The notes beneath the pieces are model-generated. The model did no database searches. It saw nothing but the letters and a program-made list of their open reading frames with translations, and had not been told where the DNA came from. 64,000 nt of DNA, from the NCBI RefSeq assembly GCF_012843675.1, contig NZ_JABAFO010000005.1, positions 1-64,000 on the forward strand, given 5' to 3'. This document shows, one piece after another, positions 34,015 through 55,511 of this stretch. This DNA comes from Lactobacillus sp. MRS-253-APC-2B. Lineage in GTDB: Bacteria > Bacillota > Bacilli > Lactobacillales > Lactobacillaceae. How positions within the stretch are numbered: position 1 is the first letter of the stretch; every line of letters starts with the position of its first letter. The translations under genes were made by a program, and so were the position numbers.

Positions 34015-34866
34015 TTAATGATTGTCTTGAATCTGGCTCATAAATTCCTGTAAAGCAGTTTGCCACGTTGGGATGGCAAATCCAGTAGCTTCCGCTTTTT
34101 TCAGGCTCATAATGGAATGACGTGGTCGATATGCCTTTTGCGGATATTCCTCAGAGGTGACTGGAGCAACCTCCACGTCTTTATCTTTCAAAATTTCACA
34201 GGCAAATTCATACCAAGAGCAACTATCTTCATTCGACAATTGATAAACGCCATATTCACAATGATGGTCAACCAGATACGTCATAAATTCTGCCAACGTC
34301 CGAGTCCAGGTAGGGCGGCCAACTTGATCATCAACTACTGTCAAGCGATCATGATCCTTAGCCAGGCGCAGCATTGTGTAGACAAAGTTCTTGCCATATT
34401 CGCCAAAGACCCATGAAGTCCGAATAATGTAATAATCAGTCATAGCAGCTTGAATAGCCTTTTCTCCAGCCAGCTTGGCTTTGCCGTACTCATTTTTGGG
34501 ATTGGTTGGATCGTCAACCTCGTATTCACTGGTTTTGGTACCATCAAATACATAATCCGTGCTAAGGTAAACCAACTTAGCACCAACTTTAGCTGCTACT
34601 TCAGCCAGGTTGCGAGTGCCATCTTCATTTACTCGCCAATTAATCTTCTTGCCTTCATCTTCAGCCTTGTCGACTGCCGTATAGGCCGCACAATGGTAGA
34701 TTACTGCTGGCTTAAGAGCCGTTACCTGTTCTTCAACTGCTTGACGGTCCGTAATGTCCATATCCTTGGCATCACGGGCATCATAAGCAATTCCGCGTTC
34801 ATCCAGTAAATGGCGCAATTCAGTCCCCAGTTGACCATTTGCGCCAATAATTAAGATTTTTGACAT
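34015..34866 (-). CDS. rmlD: dTDP-4-dehydrorhamnose reductase
   Basis: RmlD (283 residues) is the NAD(P)H-dependent last step of dTDP-L-rhamnose synthesis. It shows the Rossmann motif ILIIGANGQLGTEL (about residues 3-16), STDYVFDG (about 103-110) and the catalytic YGKAKLAGE (Tyr and Lys near 127-131). GAGGAA precedes ATG 34866. Its partners rmlA, rmlC and rmlB lie 15-18 kb upstream, at the other end of the variable part of the EPS locus. Conserved rml genes therefore bracket the AT-rich insert. Confidence 0.95.
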   Translation of the reverse strand: MSKILIIGANGQLGTELRHLLDERGIAYDARDAKDMDITDRQAVEEQVTALKPAVIYHCAAYTAVDKAEDEGKKINWRVNEDGTRNLAEVAAKVGAKLVYLSTDYVFDGTKTSEYEVDDPTNPKNEYGKAKLAGEKAIQAAMTDYYIIRTSWVFGEYGKNFVYTMLRLAKDHDRLTVVDDQVGRPTWTRTLAEFMTYLVDHHCEYGVYQLSNEDSCSWYEFACEILKDKDVEVAPVTSEEYPQKAYRPRHSIMSLKKAEATGFAIPTWQTALQEFMSQIQDNH

Positions 34867-34955: not shown

Positions 34956-35891
34956 TTAAATTAATTCTCTATAATCCGTAGCAGATAATATACCACAAAC
35001 TAAAACTACGGCAGTACATACAATGGTTGATTTAGTAATAATATGTACATCGTGAAAAAATAAGACTGTAAATATAACTGCCCAAGCAGCATATGTAACA
35101 TCTAAAGCCATTGCCTTTGATGGTCCAATTTTAGAAATGGCCTTGTAGTAAAAAAGATACGAAATTGTTGCAAATAATCCAGCCAAAGCAATAACTAATA
35201 CTACTTCTTCTGTTTTTGGATTAGTAAAAAGAGATATTACCAATGGCCAACCATTGATAATGGGAAGAATTATTCCTCCGTATACTATAGCAGAAGTTGT
35301 TTGCCGAATCTGAAGAGCATAAGCATCCTTAACATCATCATTTTTTAATGATTTCGCAAGAATAACAGCTTCAATTCCCCAACCAAAAGTACACATTATA
35401 ACGCCAATCAATCCCAATGATAGGTTTCGAACATTTAGAGCTGATGAGTTGCCAAGACCATAAACTCCTAAAAGAGTAATAAAAAGAAACATCCATTGAT
35501 ACCATTGCATCTTTTCTTTCAAAAAGAAATATGCTAATACAGCACCGACTGCTGGGAAAATGGCACTTGCTACAGCTCCAATAGACGGTCCAAGATTATT
35601 TACAGTTAAAACATATCCTGTCATTCCAACTGGTCCACCAATAATTGCAGCCAAAATTACAAATTTTCCGCTTGGTGTTTTTAGTATTTTCTTTACTTCT
35701 CCTTCATTGCCATGTAATGAATTATATAAAGTTGCCCAAATTGCCGAGAACCCATCATGAATAAACGTACTTACAAATGGTGCCAATGTGATTGCTTCTT
35801 GGGTACTTATAAAAGGCGTCATTTTTAATGCAATACCTAGTATTAGAGTTTCCAAAGCCCATGTAATTCCTGCAATAATTCCTGAAGTCAT
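34956..35891 (-). CDS. licB: LicB-type choline permease (EamA/DMT family)
   Basis: The 311-residue protein has ten hydrophobic segments in two EamA repeats. The N-terminal GIIAGITWALETLILGIAL, GGPVGMTGYVLTVNNLGPSI (about residues 84-103) and SKAMALDVTYAAWAVIF near residue 262 recall pneumococcal LicB, the choline importer of this family. Known LicB brings in choline for surface phosphocholine. ATG 35891 has GAGG 8 bases upstream. It is downstream of licC in the same direction, and the neighbouring cytidylyltransferase and kinase genes make the choline role more likely. Confidence 0.75.
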   Translation of the reverse strand: MTSGIIAGITWALETLILGIALKMTPFISTQEAITLAPFVSTFIHDGFSAIWATLYNSLHGNEGEVKKILKTPSGKFVILAAIIGGPVGMTGYVLTVNNLGPSIGAVASAIFPAVGAVLAYFFLKEKMQWYQWMFLFITLLGVYGLGNSSALNVRNLSLGLIGVIMCTFGWGIEAVILAKSLKNDDVKDAYALQIRQTTSAIVYGGIILPIINGWPLVISLFTNPKTEEVVLVIALAGLFATISYLFYYKAISKIGPSKAMALDVTYAAWAVIFTVLFFHDVHIITKSTIVCTAVVLVCGILSATDYRELI

Positions 35892-35921
35892 AATCTTCAC
35901 CTCAAAAAATTAAAACAATCA

Positions 35922-36647
35922 TTACTCATATTCTGAAACTTTCATTTCATAATGATTATCTTCTTTGGTTAATTCTAAATATGTATCAATTTCTTTTAAA
36001 TCTGTTTCCTTAATTTTAATTCCACACAGGTTATAGTCTTTGGGATGTAAAAACATCGCAATGTCGTCCCAATAAACATCAGTTATCTTATTTTGAATAA
36101 ACTCCTCTATTAATTGAGTTCTAAGCCTCAAAGCATCATTTTTTGTCCAATAAGAAATAGAATACAATCGCCAACCAGCAAATCCACCATTTCTTTTACA
36201 GCTTATTACTTGATTATCATTGTCTAAGGTTAATAACCATTCATCTGTTTTCTTAGTATAACTACATAAGTATCCTGATTGACGGAAACTTCTTTGTAAA
36301 ATTTCTTGATTCTCAATAATTTGATCTCCATCAAGAATTATCAAGTCATCATTTAAAACATCTCTAGCAACATAAAGAGATGATATATTATTTGCCGTAT
36401 CATAATAAGGATTTTCAATTAATGTAATATTGGAATATTTTTCTTTTAAAAAAAGAAATTTTTCTTTAAGGTAACCAACAACTATGTATATTTCAGTAAT
36501 TCCGTTAACTTCTAATCCAGTAATTACTGACTCAATCATTCTTACTCCATTAACTTTAATAAGTGGTTTCGGTGTAGTTAATGTTAAAGGTTGTAAACGA
36601 CTTCCGAAACCCGCTGCCATAATAATAGCTTTTTTTACTTTATGCAT
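35922..36647 (-). CDS. licC: LicC-like phosphocholine cytidylyltransferase
   Basis: The 241-residue nucleotidyltransferase starts KKAIIMAAGFGSRLQPLTL, the nucleotide-binding loop of the LicC/RmlA superfamily, followed by TPKPLIKVNG. The acidic metal-site segment LIILDGDQIIEN lies near residue 101. LicC enzymes make CDP-choline from CTP and phosphocholine. GGAG lies 7 bases before ATG 36647, and the gene overlaps the preceding kinase fusion by 8 bases, implying coupled expression. Because the fusion protein also has a LicC-like domain, one of the two may act on another amino alcohol. Confidence 0.75.
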   Translation of the reverse strand: MHKVKKAIIMAAGFGSRLQPLTLTTPKPLIKVNGVRMIESVITGLEVNGITEIYIVVGYLKEKFLFLKEKYSNITLIENPYYDTANNISSLYVARDVLNDDLIILDGDQIIENQEILQRSFRQSGYLCSYTKKTDEWLLTLDNDNQVISCKRNGGFAGWRLYSISYWTKNDALRLRTQLIEEFIQNKITDVYWDDIAMFLHPKDYNLCGIKIKETDLKEIDTYLELTKEDNHYEMKVSEYE

Positions 36648-38424
36648 TTTTCTTCTCCAAAACATCTAATACAAGTTTACTATATTCTTTAGCATATCTA
36701 TACTGCATAAAAGAGTATTCACCAAAATCTACCCCTAAAGTATTTTTATACTCACACCAATTGCTCCATAAAAGTCCACAAATTGCAACATATGCATATA
36801 TCTTTAGGCGTGTGTCATCAGGACAATTACCTTTATAGTAGGTATCAATCAAATTATCTAATTGATCACGTTCATACATTGAATAGATAGCAAACATAGC
36901 AATATCAACATCAGGATCTTGCATTGCAGCATATTCCCAATCAATAAGTACAATATCACCATCTTTCTTTAATAAGAAATTATCAGCATTAGCATCTATA
37001 TGGCAGAGCACAAATTGCTTATCTAAACTTTCAATATACTCTTTTAATTTCAGAATTCTGGCTTTGATTAGTAGGTAATCACGATAATTAGACGTTCCTT
37101 TCCTCAAGCCTTCGTAGAAATTAATTTTTTCAAACAAGTCAAAAGTAAAGTTAACTTTTAAACCTAAATGATGAAATTTGCGTAAATAATCCATGCACTT
37201 AGTCAAATCTTCTTGGCTATCACTGTTACAGGTTCTTGCACCTTCAATAAATTCACTAAGCTTATAACCGTTATCTGCATTAATATATAAGACTTTTTCA
37301 CCAATATTATGTTGAGACAAAAGATGGTAAACTTTGGATTCTTTTTTTCTACTGATCAGTTCACCGGTTCCTTCACCTGGAATTCGCATAATATAGCGTT
37401 TATTTTGACAAGTAAATTTAAAAGAACGATTAGTCATTCCTTTTTTTAAGAGTTTAATCTGACCAATCTCTTTATTATCTACACATAAAACAGATGAAAT
37501 AAGTTTTATGATTTGGTTATCTAATTGATTAGAATTTTCATCCAATTCACGTAATTCTTCATATGTATTGATTTCAGTTATTAAATTAGGAGAAACCACC
37601 AATCCATTAACAATATATCCTTCACTGTTTTCAAGAATCATTTCCCAATACTCATCATTGTTTTTGGGGTGTCCGACATAGTTTCTGAGCCTAGTTGTTA
37701 AAACATTCCCATCTTGTTCATTTAGATAGGCAATCCCTATCATTCTGTTTCCAAGATTTCCCTTCTTGACTTTCTTTAATTGAAGCTTTTTATTTAAAGT
37801 TATATTTGTGTTATAAACTTTTTCCTTGCTAACCATATACCAAGATTCAAGTTCATATTTACTAAAGGGATTAAGTTTAGCGTATATATCGCAAGGAATA
37901 ACATATGTATTTGAAAGCCCACTATTTCTACAAGCCAATGAGAGCGAATAGAGATTATTCATATCAGAATAATGATTGTTAACAATCATTTTCACCCCAT
38001 ATTTGTCAATAAGATATTCGTATCTCTCCTTCATAAAGCCAACTACAATTGTTATATCTTTTATTCCTACTTCATGAAGTTGGTTAATTAACCTCTCAAT
38101 TAAAAACTCTCCTTTAACTTCAATCAGTCCCTTAGGAAATTCTACATTCAAAGGTACCATGCGCATTCCATAACCGGCAGCCAGAATTATAGCTCGTTTT
38201 GGTTTTTGAAAAAGTGCTTTCTCAAAATTTAAGGTAAGATCTTTTTTTAAATACCCAATTTTTTCCAGAATACTTAAACTTTTATTTACTGTTCCTAATG
38301 AAAAAGACGTAGCTTGAGCTAACTTTCGCTGGGTCATCTTTCCATTATTATTGTTTGCTAAACATCGAAGGATCAAATTTTCTCTTGCGTTCATTTTATC
38401 AACCTTTACTGATTTTATGAACAT
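36640..38424 (-). CDS. Winged-HTH / LicC-like cytidylyltransferase / LicA-like choline kinase fusion
   Basis: A 594-residue protein in three parts. Residues 11-70: a winged helix-turn-helix of MarR-like type (MTQRKLAQATSFSLGTVNKS). Residues about 74-300: a nucleotidyltransferase beginning RAIILAAGYGMRMVPLN with FPKGLIEVKG. Residues about 305-590: a choline/ethanolamine kinase-like domain with the Brenner motif CHIDANADNFLL and LIDWEYAAMQDPDVDIA. It could phosphorylate choline and charge it to CDP-choline in one polypeptide, with the HTH adding possible DNA binding. ATG 38424 has GAAGGG 9 bases upstream; ATG 38394 is an alternative. LicC-LicA fusions are known from treponemes; the added HTH is less familiar to me. 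Confidence 0.78.
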   Translation of the reverse strand: MFIKSVKVDKMNARENLILRCLANNNNGKMTQRKLAQATSFSLGTVNKSLSILEKIGYLKKDLTLNFEKALFQKPKRAIILAAGYGMRMVPLNVEFPKGLIEVKGEFLIERLINQLHEVGIKDITIVVGFMKERYEYLIDKYGVKMIVNNHYSDMNNLYSLSLACRNSGLSNTYVIPCDIYAKLNPFSKYELESWYMVSKEKVYNTNITLNKKLQLKKVKKGNLGNRMIGIAYLNEQDGNVLTTRLRNYVGHPKNNDEYWEMILENSEGYIVNGLVVSPNLITEINTYEELRELDENSNQLDNQIIKLISSVLCVDNKEIGQIKLLKKGMTNRSFKFTCQNKRYIMRIPGEGTGELISRKKESKVYHLLSQHNIGEKVLYINADNGYKLSEFIEGARTCNSDSQEDLTKCMDYLRKFHHLGLKVNFTFDLFEKINFYEGLRKGTSNYRDYLLIKARILKLKEYIESLDKQFVLCHIDANADNFLLKKDGDIVLIDWEYAAMQDPDVDIAMFAIYSMYERDQLDNLIDTYYKGNCPDDTRLKIYAYVAICGLLWSNWCEYKNTLGVDFGEYSFMQYRYAKEYSKLVLDVLEKKNA

Positions 38425-38584
38425 ATAATAGACCCTTCATAATTATTTGTAAAGTATAAGCACACCCTAGTAACACATATTTTAACAACCAAACTGACCT
38501 TCTATACTTAAGCAATCTCAAATTGTACATTTTCGTGCATTTTTTGTATACTCACTTAAAAAAATAGAGGTGACGTTATGTCTA

Positions 38585-40271
38585 TAATTCCCTTAAGAGT
38601 GACACTTGAAATAATAAAAGTGTTATTCCTTAAAGGTTTTTTTATTTCAAGTTATTCGACAATGAATAGACTAGAGTTGCTTTATGGCTATCAAAAGACA
38701 GAATCCGGCCTCAAAGTATATGCCAATATGCATCATGTTAATCATGAATGCGATGACAATATGGATTCGACAGTTTCTCTTGCATGGTTTGGCGAGAGTT
38801 CGCCATCGTTCATTCAATCATCGCTATTCACTAAATACCAAGATTGAAACCGTCAAAGAGTATCAAGCCGGTTTCCCAGGTGAAAAAATCATTGAAAAGT
38901 ATGATATTCGTAGCCTCTCTCAACTAAAACAGTGGTCGGTCCAGTACAATAATGATGAACTAAAGACTAAGTCAAGAAAGCGAGTCAGAAAAATGGGTCG
39001 AAAAGTTAGTTTTGAAGAGAAATGCAAAATCGTACAGTGGGTCTTGGATCATGACAATGACTACCAAGAAGCAACAATTCAGTTTAATGTAAGCTATCAG
39101 CGTGTCTACTCATAGGTTCGCAAATACCATGAGGCAGCTGACAGTTGGGAAGCCTTGAAAGATAATCGCGGGCATCGCAAGCCTCAAAAAACTTTAGAAG
39201 AGATGACTGAAAAAGAGCGACTTGAAGCTGAAATTAAAAGACTAAAGAAAATCAATCGAGAAATGGAGCTTGAGATCGCATTTGTAAAAAAATTAGTCGA
39301 AATACGCAATCGGGGGTGAAGCGACCGGACGATATCAAGCGGTTCAAGAATTAATCAACGAAACCGCAAGTCCCGTTAGCGAACTGACTAAAATTGCCAA
39401 GGTTTCACGCAAATCATACTATCAGTGGCTCAAAAGACAGCCAACACAAAGAGAAATTGAGAACCAGGCAATTTTGGAAGCAATCTATCAGATTGAAAAA
39501 CGTCATCAGAACTGTGCTGGTTATAAAAAAGTAACCGCGATTTTGAACAATGAGAACGGGAAAAATCAAGAAATTCCAGAATACACCTTTTCGTTTGACT
39601 TTCGTATCAATATTAAGCGTGTGCGCCGAATCATGCGGAAGCACAGCATTAAAGCCGATGTCCGTCAGAAAAAGCGCAACCGCAAGCAGGAACAACAACA
39701 GTATCAAGAGGATAACTTATTGGAACGGAAATTTATTCAGGTAGCGCCGAATCTGGTTTGGGTGTCCGATACGACAGAACTAACCTATGGTCGCAACAAC
39801 AAGGTTCGCTTATACGTAGTTTTGGACTTGTATGATCGTTATGCGCTCAGTTATCATATTTCGCCAACTGAGACAGCAGAAACCGCAATGGAAGTCTTTA
39901 AACGTGCCGCCAAGCAGGCTGGGACGTTCGCACCAATGATTCATACCGATCGTGGCGCTGCCTATGCTTCAAAAGACTTTAACAACTACTTAACCAGAAT
40001 AGTAGGCACAGTCTCTCTGCGCCCGGCACTCCCGCAGATAACGCAGTGATTGAGCACTATTGGGGCGATTTTAAGTACATCTGGATGGCGCATCATTCAC
40101 ATCCGCAAACTTTGGTAGAACTGGAAGCTCTGGTTAAGCAAGGTGTCGAATACTTCAACACAGTCGAGATTTCCAGTACACGAAACAACCTCACCGCGGA
40201 GGACTTCCGCAATGAGGCCGTATAGACTAATTTTTTATTTTTTTAAGTGTTACCTTGACAGGTTACAGTAC
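38585..40271 (+). mobile_element. Decayed IS3-family element
   Basis: A second IS3-family copy, related to but clearly divergent from the one at 32-34 kb and on the opposite strand. orfA has a frameshift near 38745-38765 and a TAG at 39113-39115 where relatives have Trp (RVYSW). orfB, about 39320-40223, has a frameshift near 40005 just after the second catalytic Asp region (HTDRGAAYASKDF). The ends resemble those of the other element (ACACTT...AATAATAAAA). It is inactive and separates the choline-binding gene from the kinase fusion. Confidence 0.75.
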
Positions 40272-40305
40272 CCCTCACCAACACGATTTGACAAAGACCA
40301 TTTAA

Positions 40306-41541
40306 TTATCCAATGGCTTTATATGAGCCATTAGCATAGAAATAGTAATCTTTTCCGTTATTGTCTTTATAAACACCGTTTGCAGCCATTTCCCCACTAT
40401 AGTCAAAGTAGTACCATTGACCATTAATGAGACACCACTTATTGCTTGCAATTACTCCATTTGACTGAGCATAGTACCATTCGCCTTGATGCTTAACCCA
40501 TTTGCTTCTTAAATAAAGCCCATTTTGATCAAAATAGTATCTATTGCCATTTGAATCGGTTTCAAATCTTGCTGCAGCCATTTCCCCACCATAGTCAAAG
40601 TAGTACCATTGGCCACCGATGAGACACCATTTATTACTTGCAATCACTCCATTCGACTGAGCGTAGTACCAATTACCTTGATACTTAACCCATTTATTTC
40701 TTAGATATTTTCCATTTTGATCAAAATAGTATCTATTGCCATTTAAATCAGTTTCAAATCTTGCTGCAGCCATTTCTCCATAATAGTTAAAATAATACCA
40801 TTGGCCACCGATGAAACTCCACTTGTTGCTTGCAATTACTCCATTTGACTGAGCATAGTACCACACGTCTTGATGCTTAACCCATTTGCTTCTTAGATAA
40901 TGCCCATTTTGATCAAAATAGTATCTATTGCTATTCGAATCCGTTTCGAATCCTGCAACAGCCATTTCTCCATAATAGTTAAAATAATACCATTGCCCGT
41001 TTATACTGCACCATTCATTCTGCGCTAAGTTTCCATTCATCTTGGCATAGTACCATTCGTTATTTTTATGTATCCAAGAACTTCGTACATAACTACCATT
41101 GTTAAGAAAATGTTGTTCTCCATCAGAATCGATATAGAGAGAATAATGATTATTTGCATTTGAAGCAGACAATGTAGTAAACGACACATCTTCATTACTA
41201 ATGTTGCCTCGACCAGAGTCCATTTTATTTTGAGTATTATTATTTTCCAAATTGTTAACTGATGCCTTTTCATCATTTTCAAGATTTTGTTTTGAATCAG
41301 AATTCATATCATCTTGACTATCTTTATTCTCTGAACTACTACGATTCAAATTGCCAACTGAATTTTTATCATCACTATTTGCCACGACAATGCTATTTGA
41401 ATTACTTTTATTCGTATCTGATAATGTATCACTTTCACCAACATTTGGATTAGAAGTTAATGTATTATCGGCATAAGCTTCCACTTGCATTCCGAAGAAA
41501 AGCAATATAATACTACTTAAAACAAGAAAATATTTTTTCAT
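40306..41541 (-). CDS. Secreted choline-binding-type repeat protein
   Basis: The 411-residue protein has a signal peptide (residues 1-25, cleavage after AYA). A low-complexity linker rich in Asn, Ser and Asp follows (about 26-125). The rest is about twelve cell-wall-binding repeats (about 135-411) with the W...WYYF...G.MA pattern of choline-binding modules. A 64-residue unit recurs three times almost unchanged. There is no catalytic domain, LPxTG motif or membrane anchor. Choline-binding and glucan-binding repeats share this family; the lic genes on both sides favour choline. GGGGAG precedes ATG 41541. It may act as an adhesin or coat protein held on a phosphocholine-bearing polymer. Confidence 0.75.
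   Translation of the reverse strand: MKKYFLVLSSIILLFFGMQVEAYADNTLTSNPNVGESDTLSDTNKSNSNSIVVANSDDKNSVGNLNRSSSENKDSQDDMNSDSKQNLENDEKASVNNLENNNTQNKMDSGRGNISNEDVSFTTLSASNANNHYSLYIDSDGEQHFLNNGSYVRSSWIHKNNEWYYAKMNGNLAQNEWCSINGQWYYFNYYGEMAVAGFETDSNSNRYYFDQNGHYLRSKWVKHQDVWYYAQSNGVIASNKWSFIGGQWYYFNYYGEMAAARFETDLNGNRYYFDQNGKYLRNKWVKYQGNWYYAQSNGVIASNKWCLIGGQWYYFDYGGEMAAARFETDSNGNRYYFDQNGLYLRSKWVKHQGEWYYAQSNGVIASNKWCLINGQWYYFDYSGEMAANGVYKDNNGKDYYFYANGSYKAIG
40330..41010 (-). repeat. Tandem 192-bp repeats in the choline-binding gene
   Basis: Three nearly identical copies of a unit of about 192 bp (64 codons), with degenerate partial copies on both sides. Each codes for a pair of WYY-type modules and one RYYFDQNG segment. 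Such repeats can expand or contract by recombination and alter binding strength. Confidence 0.7.
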
Positions 41542-41655
41542 TATTCAATCACTCCCCTATGAACTATATCTTCCTTAATAGACAATAACTTCAGATATTT
41601 CCCATATACTACGTTTTTAAAAGTTTGACAGCTTTCATTATAATTTATATCGCAC

Positions 41656-41684
41656 CTTATACTAAGTAAAGATACGAATGTAAA
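41656..41684 (-). promoter_or_regulatory. Possible own promoter of the choline-binding gene
   Basis: On the minus strand: TTTACA (41679-41684), a 17-base spacer, TATAAG (41656-41661), about 115 bp before the start. The 290-base gap after licD shows no other feature. Confidence 0.4.
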
Positions 41685-41831
41685 CTTTTACCTATGCCAA
41701 AGATGATTAATCAACTGCAGTGTTGCTTATTTCTATAGGGTACTAATACATCGTTATACAAGAAAAAAACACAATATGTTCTCATAGTTTTGCTATTTGC
41801 AAGAATACTTTTTACTTCACTAAAATAATAC

Positions 41832-42653
41832 CTATTTTTTATAAGCATTATAATTATGATGACCAACTCTATCTTTTTCCTGAGGTAAAAGCATATAGTC
41901 TCCATATACATGTCTTAAAACAGCATCATAATTCTTAGGCACTCTAAAATTATAGTTTTCAAATGGTACAATTATATAATTATCAAACCATTTTCTTTCA
42001 AAAATATCCTTTATCCCCCCTGAAAGCCACACGATACAGCCAACATATTTACTGTAGTCATACTGTTTTTTTCGTGTTAGGCTCTCAAGTTTATCTTGAA
42101 TTTTGTCTTTTCCAATAAGTTTTGAAAAAATAAAAAAAGGATACTTTATAATTTTTCTTATTGGTTTAGTTGTAGTACCTAAAGTAAAATACTTACGAGT
42201 AGCTTGATAACAAATTGAGGACAATCGATCGCCCTTTAGTCCATATTTCAATGCCTCCTTTTTATTATTTCCTAAACCGTCAAAAGGATATATATCTATA
42301 AATACACCTAATCCGTACGATGCTTCATTCTGTGAATATGTAACATACCTATTATCACTAATCCTCGTAATCATATAAGGATAATCTTTATTTGTATCAT
42401 GATTAAACACTTCTAAGTTTGGATATTTGTTTATATTTTCATACAAATATTCCAATAAAGCATCATAGTCTGGCCTTGGCATCATTATATCTGTATCATC
42501 ATCCCAAGGAATGTACCCTTTATGTCTAATAGCACCTATTAAAGTACCATACATTAGATAGTATCGTAGGCCCTTCATTTCACATATATCTGCAATAGTA
42601 TGTAATAATTCTAAAGAGATCTTTTGTGTTTCTTTAACATTCAATTCTTCCAT
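41832..42653 (-). CDS. licD: LicD family phosphocholine transferase
   Basis: The 273-residue protein has the LicD core LRYYLMYGTLIGAIRHKGYIPWDDDTDIMM (about residues 30-58), with the acidic DDDTD nucleotidyltransferase-like site. LicD proteins transfer phosphocholine from CDP-choline onto sugars of cell-surface polymers. This is the attachment step that licA/B/C would feed. The ribosome-binding site (GGAAA) is weak. It follows the flippase gene in an AT-rich region, which suggests transfer from another genome. Confidence 0.85.
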   Translation of the reverse strand: MEELNVKETQKISLELLHTIADICEMKGLRYYLMYGTLIGAIRHKGYIPWDDDTDIMMPRPDYDALLEYLYENINKYPNLEVFNHDTNKDYPYMITRISDNRYVTYSQNEASYGLGVFIDIYPFDGLGNNKKEALKYGLKGDRLSSICYQATRKYFTLGTTTKPIRKIIKYPFFIFSKLIGKDKIQDKLESLTRKKQYDYSKYVGCIVWLSGGIKDIFERKWFDNYIIVPFENYNFRVPKNYDAVLRHVYGDYMLLPQEKDRVGHHNYNAYKK

Positions 42654-42700: not shown

Positions 42701-44110
42701 TCAAAAAAATTTATTAACCAACTTTTTACCTGTATTTACAATCATATGCCTCAAATTACTATCAATAATCATTTGAATGAATAATATAGACATTGCAATT
42801 AAAAATACCAATATATCATCTTTAAAAATAAACAAAGTTAGATACGTTATGAAAAACAAAATATGTAATAATACAAATTTTATTACATTTAAGGAAATCT
42901 TCCCCATTTTCTTTATTTCCCTAAATCTTAAAAAAGATACTACAAAAAAAGATAATGCATTAGCAAGAGCTGCACCATTGGAACCAAGCAATTTAATTAA
43001 AATAATTGTTAATATGACATTAATAATTGCACCAATAATTGTCGTAACTAATATAGATACAGTCCTTTTACTTGCTGTATAAATAGTTCCCAAAAATGAT
43101 GCGATACTAGTATATATAACCGCTAGAACAAGCAATGGTGTGAGTTTCCACCCGACAAAGTAACTAGAACTCAAAATTATTTTATATAAGGGTTTAATAA
43201 TGGATAATATTCCAATCCCTGCAAAAAATAATATACTTATATACGATTCAAAAACTGTACTGATAAATTTTTTTCCATCTTTTTTTTCATATTCTTCAAC
43301 AACTGACATTTGCCATGATTGAAAAAAAACTGTGTTAACTGTAGTTATAATACCTGGAACTTTTCCAGCCATTGCGTATATACCATTAGCACCAGATCCC
43401 AACATCCCTAAAATAAAGACTCTATCGGAAGCTGAATTAAGCCACCAAGCTAAATTATTAGGCGTTAATGGTATTCCGTATCTCATCATTTCTTTAAGTT
43501 TGTTTTTACTAAATAAACTCACCTTAAAAAATTTTATTATATCTATACTATACGTAATGAACAAAATAGCCGCTACCTGACCTAAAATTAGCGACAACAT
43601 ATACCCCGTCATACCAAGTTTTACAAAAATTAGCAGTATAACATTGCATATCCCCATAACAAAAGTATTTATAATACCAGCAATGGCAAACGATCGAACT
43701 TCGCCTATTGCTCTTGAAAAGTTTGAAATCAATGAAAAAAGTAATGAAACTATCATGTAAATAGTAGTGTACATGATAGGATAGCCTTTGATAAAAAAAG
43801 ATAATATAAAGCCTATAAGGAAAAATAAACAACTAGATATAATCGACATAATCAACCCAGTGCTGAAAATTTCACTTTTATTTTCATTTTTATCTAGTGC
43901 AAATCTAAAGACAGAATCATATATTTCTAAACACGCAATGGGAAGTATTAACGATGTCAAGGTTGTTAACATATCTACCTTACCAAAATCATTAGTACTT
44001 AGCGTATAGGAATACACAGGCACCATAACAAATGACATTATTTTACTGCCAAAATTTCCTATAGCAAAAATAAGGGAATTCCCCATTAACTTCCTATATT
44101 TTTTTTCCAT
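42701..44110 (-). CDS. Wzx-type polysaccharide flippase
   Basis: The 469-residue protein has about 14 hydrophobic segments and the N-terminal layout NSLIFAIGNFGSKIMSFVMVPVYSYTLS of MATE-like polysaccharide flippases. It would move the lipid-linked repeat unit across the membrane. AGGAG lies 7 bases before ATG 44110. Very AT-rich codon use differs from the rml genes. Confidence 0.88.
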   Translation of the reverse strand: MEKKYRKLMGNSLIFAIGNFGSKIMSFVMVPVYSYTLSTNDFGKVDMLTTLTSLILPIACLEIYDSVFRFALDKNENKSEIFSTGLIMSIISSCLFFLIGFILSFFIKGYPIMYTTIYMIVSLLFSLISNFSRAIGEVRSFAIAGIINTFVMGICNVILLIFVKLGMTGYMLSLILGQVAAILFITYSIDIIKFFKVSLFSKNKLKEMMRYGIPLTPNNLAWWLNSASDRVFILGMLGSGANGIYAMAGKVPGIITTVNTVFFQSWQMSVVEEYEKKDGKKFISTVFESYISILFFAGIGILSIIKPLYKIILSSSYFVGWKLTPLLVLAVIYTSIASFLGTIYTASKRTVSILVTTIIGAIINVILTIILIKLLGSNGAALANALSFFVVSFLRFREIKKMGKISLNVIKFVLLHILFFITYLTLFIFKDDILVFLIAMSILFIQMIIDSNLRHMIVNTGKKLVNKFF

Positions 44111-44152: not shown

Positions 44153-45235
44153 TTATTCTCCTAATAATAATTTATCCAAATACATAAAATGCTTTTCAGA
44201 ATTTTTTACCTGCTTTTCTACGTTAACAACATATTTATTAACTCTATTTCTATCAATTTCTTCTATTGTAAGCCTAGCAAAATCATTAATTTTAACCTTT
44301 AACCCTTCAAAATTAATATCTTTTAACAAATTATCAGTCTTATTACTATAGCTAATGGGTAAGCAAGGAACACCATATACTAGAGACATAACGATAGAAT
44401 GAAACCTTGCTCCTATTAAATAATCAGCATTCTTTATATAAGTTAAAATCTCAGCAATGTTCCCATCATAATTAATAATTTTTATTTTTGATTTACTATT
44501 TTTAGCTATTTTTTCTGCAATGTTTAAATCACCTTCGTTTTCACATAGTGACATTAAAATAACTTCTAAATCTTTAGAATTATAATATTTTATTACTTCT
44601 AAATTTTTAGCTATATATTCATCCATGTTTTGGGTCTTTTCAATAACTTGCAAAATAACATAACCTTTTTTCGGTTCTTCAATTCCTTCAACATCTAGTT
44701 TTTTAATGCCAAATAAAATATCTGGAGCATAGTGGACATTATTTAGCTCACAAAAAAGGTTGTAAGATTCGTGATCTCTAAAAGAGATATAATCATATTT
44801 TTTAAATTCTTTTTTAAAAAAATCATAAAAGAAATCATCTTGATAAGGGCCAAAATTTGCACCTAAAATTAAATTTCTTTTATCAGGAACAAATAAATTT
44901 TTTTTCATGGTAAGATACTTTTTTATATGTTTATGATCAGGCTCAATAAATATTGATCCGCCAATTGTTACAATATAGTTAACTTTTCTTACCATCTGCT
45001 TATATAGAAAATCTCCATTATTCAATAATTTATCATCTAATTTAATTAGAATTCTTTGAAAAATACTTATTGAATGAATTTTGATATTCTGATTATTTTT
45101 AAAAGCTTTTAATTTGTTTATCTGACCTGCTATTATAAAATTTACATTGCGATACCTCTGAGCTAATAAACAGACAAAAGCATCATCGCCAAAATTTTTA
45201 GCAGCATAAAAATTCACAAAAACTTTTTTTGTCAT
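44153..45235 (-). CDS. Polysaccharide pyruvyl transferase family protein
   Basis: The 360-residue protein starts VFVNFYAAKNFGDDAFV, the typical N-terminus of the polysaccharide pyruvyl transferase family. A C-terminal ADYLIGARFHSIVMSLVYGVPCLPI (about residues 281-305) includes the conserved Arg-His site. Members add ketal pyruvate from PEP to sugars of exopolysaccharides. That would put negative charge on the same polymer that receives phosphocholine. GAGG precedes ATG 45235. Confidence 0.85.
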   Translation of the reverse strand: MTKKVFVNFYAAKNFGDDAFVCLLAQRYRNVNFIIAGQINKLKAFKNNQNIKIHSISIFQRILIKLDDKLLNNGDFLYKQMVRKVNYIVTIGGSIFIEPDHKHIKKYLTMKKNLFVPDKRNLILGANFGPYQDDFFYDFFKKEFKKYDYISFRDHESYNLFCELNNVHYAPDILFGIKKLDVEGIEEPKKGYVILQVIEKTQNMDEYIAKNLEVIKYYNSKDLEVILMSLCENEGDLNIAEKIAKNSKSKIKIINYDGNIAEILTYIKNADYLIGARFHSIVMSLVYGVPCLPISYSNKTDNLLKDINFEGLKVKINDFARLTIEEIDRNRVNKYVVNVEKQVKNSEKHFMYLDKLLLGE

Positions 45236-45304: not shown

Positions 45305-46447
45305 TTAATAATTAATAAAAGTATATGGTACTGTCATATCTATTCCAAGGAAGGCATAATGATACCACCAATAAAATGACATATAAATAATAAGCATAAG
45401 TAACAAACTATATTTATACCTTATTTTTTTAAATGCTTGCGCATAAGCCAGTATTTGAAACATTGAGAAATATAATGCTATTCTTCCTCCATATTGATTA
45501 GCTGATAGCACTGTAGATTCTGTATAAAACTGACTTGCTAAAATGGCACAAATAATCATAAGTATATAAAATTTATAATTATCTATATATTGCTTATATA
45601 CTCTCCAGTTTATTATTAATACAAGCAATCCAGGTAAATAATACAAAATTTGATTAGGTAAGAAAGAAGCCTTACTCATATAATTAGCATATTGACCTAG
45701 GCCTATAAATTTAAGCAGGTAAGTTAAATATTGTGAGCTAAATACAACTAATGTACCAATTACACTAAAAATTATTAATCTATAACTACTTCCTTCTAAT
45801 TTTAAATTTCTTAGCCTTTTTTTAGAGTATAAAAATTCATATAATCCTACCACTATAAATAGGATAACTGCTGATTTATGAAAAAAGAACGCTAATACTG
45901 TTAAAAATAAGAATTTAATTTTGTCATTATTAAACCAATAAAATACCGCAACCAAACCTACAGATACAGCCATTGATTGACGTATCATATTTAAAGATGC
46001 ATTGAAAAACATTAACTCAAATGTCAACATTCCAATCCATACAGAAGCTTTTTTCAATCTTCTCAATACGAAATAAATTGGATATATAATAAATAATTCA
46101 ACAACAAGCTGAGTCATTACAATGCTATGAAATACTTTAGTAACGATCCAAATAAGAAGTGTATATCCAAATTCAAATTGGGATATCTCCATAAGACGAT
46201 ACCCATTGGGAGGCATCCAAGAAGCATGCCAGTATTCCACAAAGTTATTAGCATACATCGCTGCATCTATTGATGGACGTAAATAGACACTTACATCTGT
46301 ACCAACGCTAATTCCTCTAAAGCCTGCTACCATACATAGCAATAAAATCCCTAATGCATCAACTATCCATCGATTTTTTTCTTTAAAAAAATCTCCACAT
46401 TTAAATAATATGGTAGATACTATAAAAGCAATTAAATATACATACAT
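45305..46447 (-). CDS. EpsG-like Wzy polysaccharide polymerase
   Basis: The 380-residue membrane protein has about ten hydrophobic segments and the EpsG-type features AGFRGISVGTDVSVY (about residues 41-55) and NMIRQSMAVSVGLVAVFYW (about 153-171). It is likely the polymerase that joins EPS repeat units outside the membrane. AAGG precedes ATG 46447, 14 bases after the glycosyltransferase gene. Confidence 0.85.
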   Translation of the reverse strand: MYVYLIAFIVSTILFKCGDFFKEKNRWIVDALGILLLCMVAGFRGISVGTDVSVYLRPSIDAAMYANNFVEYWHASWMPPNGYRLMEISQFEFGYTLLIWIVTKVFHSIVMTQLVVELFIIYPIYFVLRRLKKASVWIGMLTFELMFFNASLNMIRQSMAVSVGLVAVFYWFNNDKIKFLFLTVLAFFFHKSAVILFIVVGLYEFLYSKKRLRNLKLEGSSYRLIIFSVIGTLVVFSSQYLTYLLKFIGLGQYANYMSKASFLPNQILYYLPGLLVLIINWRVYKQYIDNYKFYILMIICAILASQFYTESTVLSANQYGGRIALYFSMFQILAYAQAFKKIRYKYSLLLMLIIYMSFYWWYHYAFLGIDMTVPYTFINY

Positions 46448-46461
46448 AATTCAAACCTTAT

Positions 46462-47484
46462 TTATAATAAACGTTTAGTTTTTAAATACATAATACGTAT
46501 GTGACCTATAGTATCTAGAATTCTCCAATCTTCATTATCGAGAATCTTTAATCTAATTTTTGTTTTAAGATCACTAAACTTATACACACTTTTTTTGTTT
46601 TTTATATTATCGATACTATTTTCGATTAACTTTTTATTTTCTTTTGTAAACAACCCAAAAATTCTAACCTCCGCAACAGTATTAAATAACTGCTTAATGA
46701 ATCTTTCAGTTGCCTTAAGTTGTACTTTTTCTCCTTCTCCATCCTTAAAAATTTTGTTAATTAATTTAAACATTTCATTATATATACATTGATTATTCTT
46801 AATAATGATTTCCGGATTTTTCTTTAATCTATTATCTGATGTATTACTATCAATATAGTAAATATATGTAACTTTTGGAATGTAATAGATTCTAGGCAAA
46901 CATTCAAGGATATTCATTAAAAATAATAAATCTTCACCTAAAACCATATATGTTTTAAATTCTATTCTATTTTCTTTTAAAAATTTATTCTTGATAAATT
47001 TACAACATGGGCCATTAACTTTACCATCTTGCGTGAGTCTCCAAACTATTTGCTCTACTTGTAATTTCCCTTTTACATTTGGTAAAACTGACCATACTTC
47101 TTTATTATTCCTATCCACAAATTCTAGATCTGTCATTATAAGATCAAAATTTTGGTCAAAAGGTATCCCCCTAAACGTATTAGCCGTAATCACATCATCA
47201 GAGTCAACAAAACAAATATAATCTCCATCAGCCTTTGCTATACCATAATTTCTAGCACTGCTAACCCCACCATTTTTCTTTTTATACAATTTAAAATTAT
47301 TGTGATATTTTACATATTCAGAACACCAAGAAGTATATTTCTCTTCTGACCCATCATCAATTATTAAACATTCTATTTCTAAATTAGCTATACTTTTGTT
47401 TTGAGCCACACGAATCGAATCAAAACATCTCTGTAGTTTGCTAATCTCAGTATTAAATACTGGAACTATTACATTTACTTTCAT
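46462..47484 (-). CDS. Family 2 glycosyltransferase
   Basis: The 340-residue GT-A enzyme has NVIVPVFNTEISKLQRC at the N-terminus, IDDGSEE (about residues 42-48), GGVSSARNYGIAKADGDYICFVDSDD (about 73-99) with the metal-binding DSD, and a C-terminal helical region. It adds one sugar to the EPS repeat unit; donor and linkage are unknown. AAAGG precedes ATG 47484. Confidence 0.9.
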   Translation of the reverse strand: MKVNVIVPVFNTEISKLQRCFDSIRVAQNKSIANLEIECLIIDDGSEEKYTSWCSEYVKYHNNFKLYKKKNGGVSSARNYGIAKADGDYICFVDSDDVITANTFRGIPFDQNFDLIMTDLEFVDRNNKEVWSVLPNVKGKLQVEQIVWRLTQDGKVNGPCCKFIKNKFLKENRIEFKTYMVLGEDLLFLMNILECLPRIYYIPKVTYIYYIDSNTSDNRLKKNPEIIIKNNQCIYNEMFKLINKIFKDGEGEKVQLKATERFIKQLFNTVAEVRIFGLFTKENKKLIENSIDNIKNKKSVYKFSDLKTKIRLKILDNEDWRILDTIGHIRIMYLKTKRLL

Positions 47485-47548: not shown

Positions 47549-48490
47549 TTATGAATTCATAAGTTTCTTATAATAGGTATTGTCTATTTTACTTTTATTA
47601 TTATCAAACTTATACGTCAACTTATGTATAGACGTTTGGCTTAATATACCCTTCCAAATATCTGGATCATATTCATCAAAAAGTCTAAGTAACAACATAT
47701 GTGGTGTTGCATTATCTGAAGGAATTACTGCTTTCCACTCATCTGGACAAGCTTCTATAGTCAATTGAAAAAAATCATGAAGCAAGAAGTAATCTACTAA
47801 ATCAGTATTTTCTTCCCAATATTTGTAAAGCAAGTCTCTTACCAAAATCAATATTTTATTATTTGAAAATGATGAAATAAACCAACTTGATATTACAGTT
47901 GAATGTCCATCTTTCCCTGGTTTTAGACACTGATACAAAAATAGCTTAGACTTCAAAATATAGTCGGGTACCTCATCACTATAATAGACAGTTGCATCTG
48001 TCCAAATACCACCATAATTTATAAGTAATTCTAATCTTATTAAGTCAGATAAATGAGTTTTGGTTATTAAACCATTATCGATTTTTTCCTGAATATAATC
48101 AGGAAATTTAATAAATGATTTATAATTTTTTTCTGTAATTAATACTACTTCTTTTTTTCCTTTATACGCCCTTTTCGCAGATTCATAGCACTTTTTAACT
48201 ATTGGAGGTGCGCTCTCAATTCCTTGATACCAACAAAACCATACTTTATTACCCATCTCTTCTTTTTTCTTTTTGAAATTAGAAATTTCATATTCTAAAA
48301 AATGGCCATATTTTTTCTTAAGATTTTGTTGAGTTTTTAATTCCGTAGAAAGTCGTAAAATTTCTAAAGCCGTCCTACTTTTTCCTAATAAAAAAAATTC
48401 ACATATCGCAGTAAATAAAGCACCATTTCTCCAATATTGCTTTATTAAATGAACTCCACCTTGCTTTTTAAAAGTTTCACTTAATTTCAT
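47549..48490 (-). CDS. Capsular polysaccharide synthesis glycosyltransferase (GT32-like)
   Basis: The 313-residue protein resembles the Caps_synth family. A helical N-terminal part is followed by KVWFCWYQGIESAPPIV (about residues 82-98), HLSDLIRLELLINYGGIWTDATVYY (about 144-168) with the DXD-type site and a C-terminal half of mixed structure. It probably adds another sugar. Its start overlaps the preceding rhamnosyltransferase gene by 14 bases. Confidence 0.82.
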   Translation of the reverse strand: MKLSETFKKQGGVHLIKQYWRNGALFTAICEFFLLGKSRTALEILRLSTELKTQQNLKKKYGHFLEYEISNFKKKKEEMGNKVWFCWYQGIESAPPIVKKCYESAKRAYKGKKEVVLITEKNYKSFIKFPDYIQEKIDNGLITKTHLSDLIRLELLINYGGIWTDATVYYSDEVPDYILKSKLFLYQCLKPGKDGHSTVISSWFISSFSNNKILILVRDLLYKYWEENTDLVDYFLLHDFFQLTIEACPDEWKAVIPSDNATPHMLLLRLFDEYDPDIWKGILSQTSIHKLTYKFDNNKSKIDNTYYKKLMNS

Positions 48491-49703
48491 AATTTCTGTT
48501 TCCTAAAAATGCTTGATTATATTCTTCAGTAATCAATTGCCAACTATAGGCATCTTTAATTCGTTGCTTAGCCTTGTTACCGAAACATTCAATCTGTTCA
48601 GGTGTCATTTGCTGAGTCTTATTCAATAACTCACTTAATGATCCTGAATCCTTAGTCCAATATAATGCTGCATCTTGGGCGACTTCGCGGTTAAAGCCGA
48701 CGTCATACAATAAATTCAGCTTTGTACTGCCAAGAGCTTCTAACAAGGACGGATTGGTACCGCCAACTGAATGTCCATGTAAGTAGCCAAATGCATTTTC
48801 TCGAATATATTTCAGCAATTCACCATCATAAACCGTACCGACAAACTTGATTCGTGCATCTTGATCAAAATGAGTCTCTGCCTTAAGGTCATCATAGAAT
48901 TGGTTATGTTCAACATTGGTAATCAATACTAAATCCTTGTCAACCTTACTCTTCATAAACTCTTTGATCATGGTTGCGTAATTGTTTTCGGGTACAAAAC
49001 GACCAACTACTAAGAAATAGTTGTTTTCTTGAACATTATGTTGCTGATACCAAGCTCGCACTTTAGCATCATCTGTTTTTAAGCTGGTTGCCGTTACATC
49101 AGCTCCATAAGCGATAAACGTAGTCTTGGGATGATATTTGGCATAGGTAGTCTGGATATATTTTTCAATATTAACTGAGTCACAAATTAGCAGATCAGCA
49201 TGCTTAACCATTCCAGCCTCGGAAACTTTCCAGTATTTCCGTACTGGCTTAGACCATTTAGCCCGCATCCATTCATGACCATCAGGATTAACAAAAACTT
49301 GTCCCCCAAGCTGATGCAGCTGCTTAACGTATTTATTTACAAACGGCCCAATTCGACAAGCCAAGACATAAACAATTGGATGCTTGATTTGTTGAAGTTT
49401 GATTTGTCGGATACATTCTTTAAATGCGGCAATATCATAGTAAATTGCTTGAGCTGATTTAAGCTTTTCCGAAACGTCAACCTTAAAACAATCGGCATTG
49501 TAATAGATAAAATGATGATCATCAATCGTCTTGGCGTTTGGCAGCTTGGTTTCGTCCATTGCTCCTTGGCCATTATATTTGCAGGCAATGTGATACTTAA
49601 TCTGCTTATTGTTACGATCAGTTTCAATCAGCTTTTTTAAAAAGGTCTCATATCCGCCATAGTTACCAATTCCTTTGGCACCAATAATAAATACGTCTTG
49701 CAT
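48477..49703 (-). CDS. Rhamnosyltransferase-like GT4 glycosyltransferase (DUF1972)
   Basis: The 408-residue protein has an N-terminal domain starting QDVFIIGAKGIGNYGGYETF, typical of DUF1972/Cps2T-type transferases. A GT-B C-terminal half follows, with VVGRFVPENNYATMIKEF (about residues 230-247) and HGHSVGGTNPSLLEALG (about 309-325). Relatives transfer rhamnose as the second sugar of the repeat. The gene lies directly downstream of rmlA-C-B. Its composition is intermediate between the rml genes and the AT-rich genes beyond. Confidence 0.85.
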   Translation of the reverse strand: MQDVFIIGAKGIGNYGGYETFLKKLIETDRNNKQIKYHIACKYNGQGAMDETKLPNAKTIDDHHFIYYNADCFKVDVSEKLKSAQAIYYDIAAFKECIRQIKLQQIKHPIVYVLACRIGPFVNKYVKQLHQLGGQVFVNPDGHEWMRAKWSKPVRKYWKVSEAGMVKHADLLICDSVNIEKYIQTTYAKYHPKTTFIAYGADVTATSLKTDDAKVRAWYQQHNVQENNYFLVVGRFVPENNYATMIKEFMKSKVDKDLVLITNVEHNQFYDDLKAETHFDQDARIKFVGTVYDGELLKYIRENAFGYLHGHSVGGTNPSLLEALGSTKLNLLYDVGFNREVAQDAALYWTKDSGSLSELLNKTQQMTPEQIECFGNKAKQRIKDAYSWQLITEEYNQAFLGNRNYEIK

Positions 49704-49802: not shown

Positions 49803-51436
<1,634 letters not shown>

Positions 51437-51439
51437 AGT

Positions 51440-52309
51440 CTATTTCTCCTCTGCCAAACGCAATAAGTACTGACCATAGTCGTTTTTCTTTAATGGCTGT
51501 GCCAGTCGAATCAGTTGTTCTTTATTAATGTATCCCATCCGGTAGGCAATTTCTTCAATTGCCGCAACCTTCAGATTTTGCCGTTTCTCAATCGTGGCGA
51601 TAAAATTGGCTGCTTCCAGCATTGAGTCGTGCGTGCCAGTATCAAGCCAAGCATAGCCGCGACCCATCAACTGCACGTCCAGCTGGTCACGTTTTAAGTA
51701 CTCTTTATTGACATCAGTGATTTCTAATTCTCCTCGTGCCGATGGTTGAATATGCTTAGCAATCTCAACGACATCATTATCATAGAAGTAAAGCCCAGTC
51801 ACTGCATAATTGCTCTTAGGCTGTTTTGGTTTTTCTTCCAATGAGAGGGCATGCATATTTTCATCAAACTCAACGACGCCAAAACGTTTGGGGTCATTGA
51901 CATGGTAGCCAAACACCGTTGCCCCACTCTCTTTTCGCGCGGCATTTTGAACCAGCTTGGAAAGTCCCGAGCCATAGTAGATGTTGTCGCCTAAAACCAA
52001 TGCAACTGAATCATTGCCAATAAAATCTTCACCTAAAATAAATGCTTCGGCCAAGCCATTTGGATGTTCCTGTATTTGATAGGAAAAGCTCATTCCAATT
52101 TCTGAACCGTCCCCCAACAATTCTTCAAACAACGGCAAATATTCTGGCGTTGAAATTACCAAAACCTCACGAATCCCTGCCAACATCAAAGTTGACAATG
52201 GATAATAAATCATCGGCTTATCATAAACCGGAATCAATTGCTTAGAAATACCACGGGTAATTGGGTAGAGCCGTGTGCCGCTACCCCCGGCTAAAATAAT
52301 ACCTTTCAT
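51440..52309 (-). CDS. rmlA: Glucose-1-phosphate thymidylyltransferase
   Basis: RmlA (289 residues) makes dTDP-glucose. The nucleotide loop [16 protein letters not shown] starts at residue 3, with [16 protein letters not shown] and [13 protein letters not shown] (about 106-118) following. GLAWLDTG-like sequence ([15 protein letters not shown]) lies near residue 221. It feeds rmlC, rmlB and the distant rmlD. Confidence 0.96.
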
Positions 52310-52331: not shown

Positions 52332-52988
52332 CTAATATGCACTATTAGGAAAGATCATAATTTTAACCGTCATAAAGATAATCCAGCCGTCATACCAAAA
52401 ACTGGCTTTATTTATGTATTCAATATCTAAACTGACCATTTCATCAAAACTGGCCTTATTGCGAACCGTTGCCTGCCAAAGTCCCGTACAACCCGGCGTA
52501 ACCAACAATCGCTGCTTATCATAATCAGTATATTCAGCGACCTCGCTTGGTAGCGGTGGTCGTGGCCCAACCAGACTCATATCCCCCACGAGGACGTTAA
52601 CCAATTGTGGCAGTTCGTCTAAGCTGTATTTACGGATCCATTTGCCGGTTTTAGTAACCCGAGGATCTTCCTTCATCTTAAACATCGCACCTTCAACCTC
52701 ATTCTGGTCGAGCAGCTGTTGTTTAATCTGATCGGCATTCTGTACCATTGACCGAAATTTGTACATCTTAAATGGCTTTTCGTTTTTGCCAAGCCGAGTC
52801 TGTGAATAAAATACTGGACCACCATCTTCAAGCTTGATCCGCAATGCAATCACTAAAAACAATGGCGAAAGTAGCACTAAGGCAAGCAAGCTGGCAATCA
52901 AATCAAAGCCGCGTTTACAGACTCGATAAAACAGCCGCTTTTTTACGCGCTGTTGATTGACATATGCTTTAGTTTTTGTTGCCATCAT
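52332..52988 (-). CDS. Undecaprenyl-phosphate sugar phosphotransferase (priming enzyme)
   Basis: The 218-residue enzyme starts EPS assembly by placing a sugar phosphate on undecaprenyl phosphate. It is the short form with one membrane helix (about residues 28-50) and the catalytic domain: FYSQTRLGKNEKPFKMYKFRSM (about 80-101), SLDELPQLVNVLVGDMSLVGPRPPLP (about 142-167). Donor sugar (galactose or glucose) cannot be read from sequence. AGGAGG lies 9 bases before ATG 52988. Confidence 0.92.
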   Translation of the reverse strand: MMATKTKAYVNQQRVKKRLFYRVCKRGFDLIASLLALVLLSPLFLVIALRIKLEDGGPVFYSQTRLGKNEKPFKMYKFRSMVQNADQIKQQLLDQNEVEGAMFKMKEDPRVTKTGKWIRKYSLDELPQLVNVLVGDMSLVGPRPPLPSEVAEYTDYDKQRLLVTPGCTGLWQATVRNKASFDEMVSLDIEYINKASFWYDGWIIFMTVKIMIFPNSAY

Positions 52989-53044
52989 TACACGATTCCT
53001 CCTCCCTTAATCATCCTCTTTAGTCGAAAAGAGGGGCGAGGTTA

Positions 53045-53054
53045 CCCCCCCCCC
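53045..53054. repeat. C10 homopolymer tract (G10 on the coding strand)
   Basis: A run of ten C lies between the tyrosine phosphatase gene and the priming transferase gene. On the transcribed strand the run reads GGCG followed by G and pairs partly with CCTCGCC before TCTTTT, making a terminator-like hairpin. Such runs can change length by slippage and are also prone to sequencing error. Confidence 0.6.
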
Positions 53055-53069
53055 GCCTAATTTTCTTAA

Positions 53070-53840: not shown

Positions 53841-53870
53841 CCTGATTCACCCTTCCTGCTTTTAATACGA

Positions 53871-54629: not shown

Positions 54630-54641
54630 CATAACCCTCCT

Positions 54642-55499: not shown

Positions 55500-55511
55500 T
55501 TTTTTCCTCCT

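Follow-up and report, generated by a model that had tools for sequence, protein, structure and literature searches.

A Lic-1-type phosphocholine cassette and a predicted choline-binding repeat protein in a lactobacillus exopolysaccharide locus

The pneumococcal lic1 and lic2 genes (LicA, LicB, LicC, LicD1/2) and their choline-binding proteins (CBPs; LytA, LytB, CbpF, Pce) are the closest described counterpart of the locus reported here, with homologous enzymes for the same enzymatic steps. Haemophilus lic1 (licABCD) resembles it as a compact cassette with a DMT-type LicB and a LicD, and there phosphocholine occurs without an obligatory CBP. Surface phosphocholine resembles a host structure and is recognized by C-reactive protein, by natural antibodies against phosphocholine and by phage lysins that bind choline. 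A 2023 survey that covered phosphocholine genes in bacteria with reported phosphocholine expression does not mention lactobacilli (PMC10434233), and our literature search for phosphocholine in Limosilactobacillus yielded no paper, which is no proof of absence. Here, we describe a stretch of 64,000 nucleotides from Lactobacillus sp. MRS-253-APC-2B (the window), in which what is probably a Lic-1-type phosphocholine cassette lies within a Wzy-dependent exopolysaccharide (EPS) locus together with a repeat-only CBP predicted to bind choline. We give this reading a probability of roughly 0.66.

The identity of the genes, the conservation of residues and of the operon, the choline-type signature and the fold prediction are established directly, as set out below. 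From them we infer choline as the actual substrate, EPS as its acceptor and binding by the CBP. LicB would import choline, the kinase half of LicCA would phosphorylate it, and LicC would make CDP-choline, possibly aided by the LicCA cytidylyl domain. LicD would pass phosphocholine on to one of the sugars in the EPS repeat unit, either ahead of Wzx export or at about that stage, and the CBP would hold the phosphocholine non-covalently via four to eight two-tryptophan cages. In this position, it may join EPS chains to one another and to the cell, or serve to expose its linker.

The repeat protein and its tryptophan signature

The repeat protein consists of a signal peptide, a disordered linker to about residue 130 and a beta-solenoid, and Pfam matches the protein to Choline_bind_1 (E 7.5e-30) and Choline_bind_3 (E 9.4e-27). 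Eight exact W-x6-WYY units lie at residues 155, 176, 219, 240, 283, 304, 347 and 368 and extend to W-x6-WYY-x4-G, with S, E or K in place of the Gly of GW in the 20-residue choline-binding repeat motif GW-x6-WYY-x4-G-x-M (PMC5345100). Every third unit of the protein is without Trp. A Pfam search found no catalytic domain in it and a sequence check no LPXTG motif, and it is therefore a repeat-only protein with a build most like CbpF, CbpJ or CbpL. In the AlphaFold model, the solenoid has a pLDDT of mostly about 90 over residues ~160-400 and the first 130 residues are disordered. Among the fold matches, the choline-binding module of LytB from pneumococcus ranks first (Z 20.4, with an rmsd of 7.5 across 275 residues), and further matches include CbpJ (Z 17.5) and the glucansucrase GtfD. 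With a Z of 15.9 for GtfD, structure comparison did not discriminate between choline and glucan binding and was rejected as a test of this kind.

One repeat family spans choline-binding and glucan-binding modules, and two Trp residues form the choline cage (PMC4929436), whose first two aromatic positions are as a rule both occupied by Trp. Because the family covers both kinds of binder, the share of WYY hairpins with an upstream Trp (W-x6-WYY) was counted. The upstream Trp is present in 8/8 hairpins of the window CBP, which thus has none of the hairpins without it that mark the YG type. High shares were also found in CBPs of LicCA-positive Limosilactobacillus loci (268/284) and of other LicCA-positive lactobacilli (26/28), amounting to 94% for lic-positive lactobacilli, as well as in lic loci from GTDB genomes (435/472). 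By the same count, LicCA-negative Limosilactobacillus scored 0/21, large glucansucrase-like proteins of LicCA-negative Lactobacillaceae 0/25, and four other repeat proteins of the window genome 1/22. The rule is not absolute, as two pneumococcal phage lysins score 6/9. Judged by its repeats, the protein likely has a choline-binding function.

Other ways of classifying such proteins were tried and rejected. Counts of PF19127 do not separate lic-positive from lic-negative genomes, with 13 strong matches in the window genome, mostly in YG-type proteins. Outside the genus, the E-value of a search with the window CBP is insufficient by itself, and the two-Trp count is needed because giant glucansucrase-like proteins also match. 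A glucansucrase context for the repeat protein was likewise dismissed, the genome's other repeat proteins being hydrolase-like by inspection (CHAP-, GH25- and M23-like ends) with YG-type repeats.

Large secreted YG-repeat proteins with CHAP-, GH25- and M23-like domains are encoded elsewhere in the window genome (L010 2794-15702 and L011 1-1409). They are an anchoring class different from the window CBP.

Lic enzymes and the choline pathway

In phmmer searches against the PDB, the sole match of LicB was the LicB choline transporter 7b0k (E 2.2e-26), and Pfam places an EamA domain in it. The best solved relative of the stand-alone LicC is pneumococcal LicC 1jyk (E 6.1e-30), with the PntC relative 6pd1 matching far less well. 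In the alignment, the catalytic and choline-side residues (Asp residues, Trp) are as in pneumococcal LicC, a claim limited to the aligned motifs. LicD contains the full PF04991 domain (E 6e-46) with the motif GTLIGAIRHKGYIPWDDDTDIMM, lies beside wzx and is the only LicD found in a genome-wide search.

LicCA matches both LicA 4r77 (E 1.5e-34) and LicC 1jyk (E 8e-26). It consists of a winged helix-turn-helix (HTH) at residues ~13-60 (HTH_24), a LicC-like cytidylyltransferase domain at 77-296 and a LicA choline kinase at 303-578, and the N-terminal extension is found in 80/81 LicCA homologues. Through the winged helix, LicCA is possibly a choline-responsive regulator of the operon that encodes it. 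The choline pocket of pneumococcal LicA is formed by Tyr197, Trp251, Trp254, Tyr268, Asp176 and Thr29 (PMC4364537). When the window LicCA was aligned with 80 relatives from GTDB genomes, the equivalents of all six were invariant in 81/81 sequences, and the position of Val178 was occupied by Val in 59 sequences and by Asn in 21, including the window.

The order licCA-licC-transporter is conserved among 80 lic loci. In 65 of them licC adjoins licCA, and a protein of ~510 residues follows in 65/80, belonging to the betaine/carnitine/choline transporter (BCCT) family as judged from two Pfam-tested members (PF02028, E ~1e-123). In the window, as in L012, L047 and L060, a LicB-type permease holds the BCCT place. 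Choline as substrate is well supported by this replacement, since an unrelated transporter family takes over the same operon place.

CBPs in lic loci include cell-wall enzymes with GH25, L,D-transpeptidase, NlpC/P60 and amidase domains. Two carry a metallo-beta-lactamase domain (Mordavella, L016 8069-10210; Dorea, L017 21346-22476). In the Mordavella CBP, this domain is of the phosphorylcholine esterase type known from Pce/CbpE (2bib, E 2.6e-60), and the Dorea protein, with the same N-terminal sequence, is probably Pce-like too. In pneumococcus, Pce removes phosphocholine.

All the sequence features of Lic-1 that could be tested are present, and a choline pathway is very likely. The sequence-only reading, made from the window's letters and open reading frames (ORFs), had proposed that this bacterium decorates its EPS with phosphocholine; the invariant cage, the two transporter families in one place and the Pce-like esterase of relatives back the choline pathway in this proposal with residue-level and comparative evidence.

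Co-occurrence, EPS context and competing explanations

It had also been asked whether the repeats and lic genes travel together, and the survey answers that they do. With a genome-level cut-off of E <= 1e-20, proteins like the window CBP occur in 7/8 LicCA-positive and 1/42 LicCA-negative Limosilactobacillus genomes (Fisher p 6e-7, uncorrected for phylogeny). By raw count, a CBP lies <=10 kb from licCA in 29/80 loci, and 12 of these 29 have it <=0.7 kb away. Genome G072, the one apparent outlier in the two-Trp count, proved to encode LicB and LicC side by side with a diverged choline kinase of the LicCA-like kind and a CHAP protein with GW repeats. Genome G042, which is 86% complete, has choline-type proteins, and no choline kinase was found in it. 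In a sample of 398 genomes of the phylum, no other CBP-like genome was found at the cut-off.

In several Limosilactobacillus genomes (L102-L104, L106-L109), dozens of choline-type repeats are clustered around licCA, like the pneumococcal CBP repertoire.

The closest named relative of the strain is Limosilactobacillus mucosae DSM 13345, whose LicCA is 93% identical. Its licD is 91% identical to that of the window, while the wzx, wzy and glycosyltransferase (GT) genes in the stretch from licD to the rhamnosyltransferase gene differ. As the phosphocholine module is kept while backbone genes change, and from its position, EPS is the likely phosphocholine acceptor. In DSM 13345, a contig ending in licD is followed, across 217 unmatched bases, by the sequence just before licCA, without a CBP gene or an insertion sequence (IS). 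In other loci, too, licD directly precedes licCA (L026, L033, L036, L038, L087), and window LicD is 63-67% identical to LicDs in this position. Within EPS loci, L. ruminis (L036) has licD-licCA-licC, and licD lies beside wzx in L038 as well as in the window. The mobilizable L. paracasei plasmid pE1-2 (L137) carries the same EPS gene classes and licD-licCA-licC-BCCT with no CBP at the junction; its LicD and LicCA are 63% and 45% identical to those of the window. Since it is found across these loci, adjacency of licD and licCA free of CBP and IS is probably ancestral, and the window has probably gained the CBP gene and IS between them. The sequence-only reading had this bacterium displaying its own CBP on phosphocholine. 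The repeats are indeed of the choline-cage rather than the glucan type, but the CBP is accessory; because DSM 13345 has the cassette without it, CBP display would be a strain-variable extra and not a core function.

Several observations weigh against a choline cassette paired with a choline-binding protein, and some of them favor other explanations. No CBP of this kind over the cut-off was found elsewhere in the DSM 13345 genome, and 19 other genomes of the phylum sample have choline-kinase matches without such a repeat protein. The fold match supports the fold only, because glucan-binding domains match too. The close GtfD match, the shared Pfam family, the similar 64-residue period (TIGR04035 gives 90 bits, below its cut-off of 147.7) and the units without Trp would all suit a protein that binds glucan or the EPS backbone, like YG-type repeats, beside lic genes that decorate the polymer. 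We regard this as unlikely, as the two-Trp signature splits the classes cleanly (8/8 in the window CBP, 1/22 in the genome's other repeat proteins). In LicCA, the position of LicA Glu213 is Tyr in all homologues, and the cytidylyl domain has Glu in 81/81 where LicC has Asp after Tyr-Trp; this Asp is present in 54/66 LicC, as in the pneumococcal enzyme. PntC enzymes that use aminoethylphosphonate (AEP) are described with Glu at that position, and LicC-like PntC activates AEP (PMC6697681). Since Glu replaces the LicC Asp, the cytidylyl domain of LicCA may have another substrate or act in regulation alongside the winged helix, and we note as a lead that it and LicC may differ in substrate. Even so, a pathway for phosphoethanolamine or AEP instead of choline is the least probable of the alternatives: the aromatic choline cage of LicA is invariant, LicB and BCCT share one operon place, related loci encode a Pce-like esterase, stand-alone LicC keeps the Asp residues, and the genome has no match over the cut-off to the phosphoenolpyruvate mutase looked for as a mark of phosphonate (PntC) tailoring.

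The acceptor is also open to challenge, in that LicD might put phosphocholine on teichoic acid or lipid, its place in the EPS locus being incidental. In pneumococcus, LicD1/D2 have precursors of teichoic acid as their acceptors (PMC6813931), and the best NCBIfam match of window LicD is diacylglycerol cholinephosphotransferase Mf1, although at 110.8 far below the cut-off of 225. The recurrence of licD beside wzx and in the EPS loci of DSM 13345, L. ruminis and the L. paracasei plasmid, with no second LicD in the genome, makes this improbable. An IS3-type remnant, which resembles another copy in this genome (L010 1153-2713), lies on the opposite strand between the CBP gene and licCA, directly upstream of the latter. 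As it parts licCA from the EPS operon, licCA expression depends on a predicted promoter, and the insertion could have cut licCA-licC-licB from transcription, leaving a decaying cassette and an unmodified surface. This is highly unlikely, given that all lic ORFs are intact and that the stretch before licCA, conserved with DSM 13345, holds a promoter-like box (38425-38453, 10/12 consensus match). The box end touches the listed licCA start, and the true start is probably the Met at 38394.

Gene layout and comparison with known systems

The draft genome is 1.98 Mb in size and 99.9% complete, and the window lies on contig 45. The EPS locus is encoded on the minus strand from an LCP-type protein through rmlD (34015-56522; Table 1), and its LCP-to-rmlB part was named by sequence inspection. 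Its gene order is LCP, Wzd/Wze/Wzb-like, priming transferase, rmlA, rmlC, rmlB, rhamnosyltransferase, Caps_synth transferase, GT2, EpsG-type polymerase, pyruvyl transferase, flippase, licD, repeat protein, IS3 remnant, licCA, licC, licB and rmlD. The lic and CBP genes thus sit between wzx and rmlD, the latter directly after licB. The five genes named by the sequence-only reading (LicB, LicC, LicCA, the repeat protein and LicD), all on the minus strand, were confirmed with their coordinates, as were the placement of the repeat protein between licD and the remaining lic genes and that of all lic genes in a single EPS locus, which is a full Wzy-type cluster. Features that this reading did not name are the IS3-type remnant, the N-terminal winged helix of LicCA and the place of rmlD next to licB.

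Table 1. Features of the EPS locus and its lic cassette, with positions in the window
Feature	Position	Strand	Basis
rmlD, end of EPS locus	34015-34866	-	ORF; 66% to annotated rfbD
LicB-type choline permease (DMT/EamA)	34956-35900	-	7b0k match, EamA, operon place
LicC-type CTP:phosphocholine cytidylyltransferase	35922-36665	-	1jyk match, aligned Asp residues and Trp
LicCA fusion (winged HTH, LicC-like, LicA kinase)	36640-38424	-	4r77, 1jyk, HTH_24
IS3-type transposase remnant, two ORFs	38578-40049	+	ORFs; similar genomic copy
Secreted choline-binding-type repeat protein (CBP)	40306-41541	-	Pfam, exact repeat units, AlphaFold
LicD phosphotransferase	41832-42653	-	PF04991
Wzx flippase	42701-44110	-	Polysacc_synt
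Polysaccharide pyruvyl transferase	44153-45235	-	PF04230, E 3.7e-34
EpsG-family polymerase (Wzy)	45305-46447	-	PF14897, E 2.4e-34
GT2 glycosyltransferase	46462-47484	-	PF00535
Capsular polysaccharide synthesis glycosyltransferase	47549-48490	-	PF05704, E 4.3e-81
Rhamnosyltransferase-type GT	48477-49703	-	56% to Cps2T, L. paracasei plasmid
rmlB, rmlC, rmlA (dTDP-rhamnose)	49803-52309	-	Inspection; rmlB 77% to annotated rfbB
Priming transferase, Wzb-, Wze- and Wzd-like regulators, LCP-type attachment protein	52332-56522	-	Inspection

If the favored reading is true, the phosphocholine epitope would be part of commensal biology, beyond pathogens, and EPS chemistry would depend on dietary choline. 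Binding to C-reactive protein and the PAF receptor might then also be affected, as the sequence-only reading proposed. The favored reading predicts a non-covalent anchor for lactobacillus surface proteins, and a mobilizable plasmid of L. paracasei carries the gene set too. A broader proposal, to which we give somewhat less than even odds, is that a mobile phosphocholine module is common to commensal lactobacilli and gut Clostridia, consisting of LicD, the winged HTH-LicC-LicA fusion, a second LicC, an exchangeable BCCT/LicB importer and often CBP-hydrolase clusters with a Pce-like esterase. A pneumococcus-like choline-anchored surface would then be widespread, the fused DNA-binding domain may sense choline, and the LicCA cytidylyl substrate would differ from that of LicC.

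The YG-type repeats with which glucansucrases and lactobacillus hydrolases bind glucan have the solenoid fold and Pfam repeat family in common with the window CBP, but the upstream Trp that belongs to the choline cage is missing from them, and they occur in the window genome as separate proteins on contigs C8 and C11. Treponema denticola LicCA, reportedly described by Kent et al. in 2004 (cited in PMC7368946), is said to be a cytidylyltransferase-choline kinase fusion that feeds phosphatidylcholine synthesis, whereas here LicD and an EPS locus accompany LicCA. The Haemophilus lic1 cassette, which acts on lipooligosaccharide, differs in its lack of the Gram-positive EPS context and the fused LicCA, and its independence of a CBP is paralleled by DSM 13345. 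The pneumococcal system shares the two-Trp repeats and a set of CBPs that includes hydrolases and, in loci related to ours, a Pce-like esterase. In contrast to pneumococcus, the genes here belong to an EPS locus with one LicD, LicC and LicA form one protein that begins with a winged HTH, a further LicC is present, and a single repeat-only CBP lies beside the cassette, which the closest relative lacks at this position. The system would work like the pneumococcal one and be a variant of this known kind, and what appears to be new is its setting, with Lic-1 and CBPs together in lactobacilli that are commensals and, as related loci indicate, in gut Clostridia.

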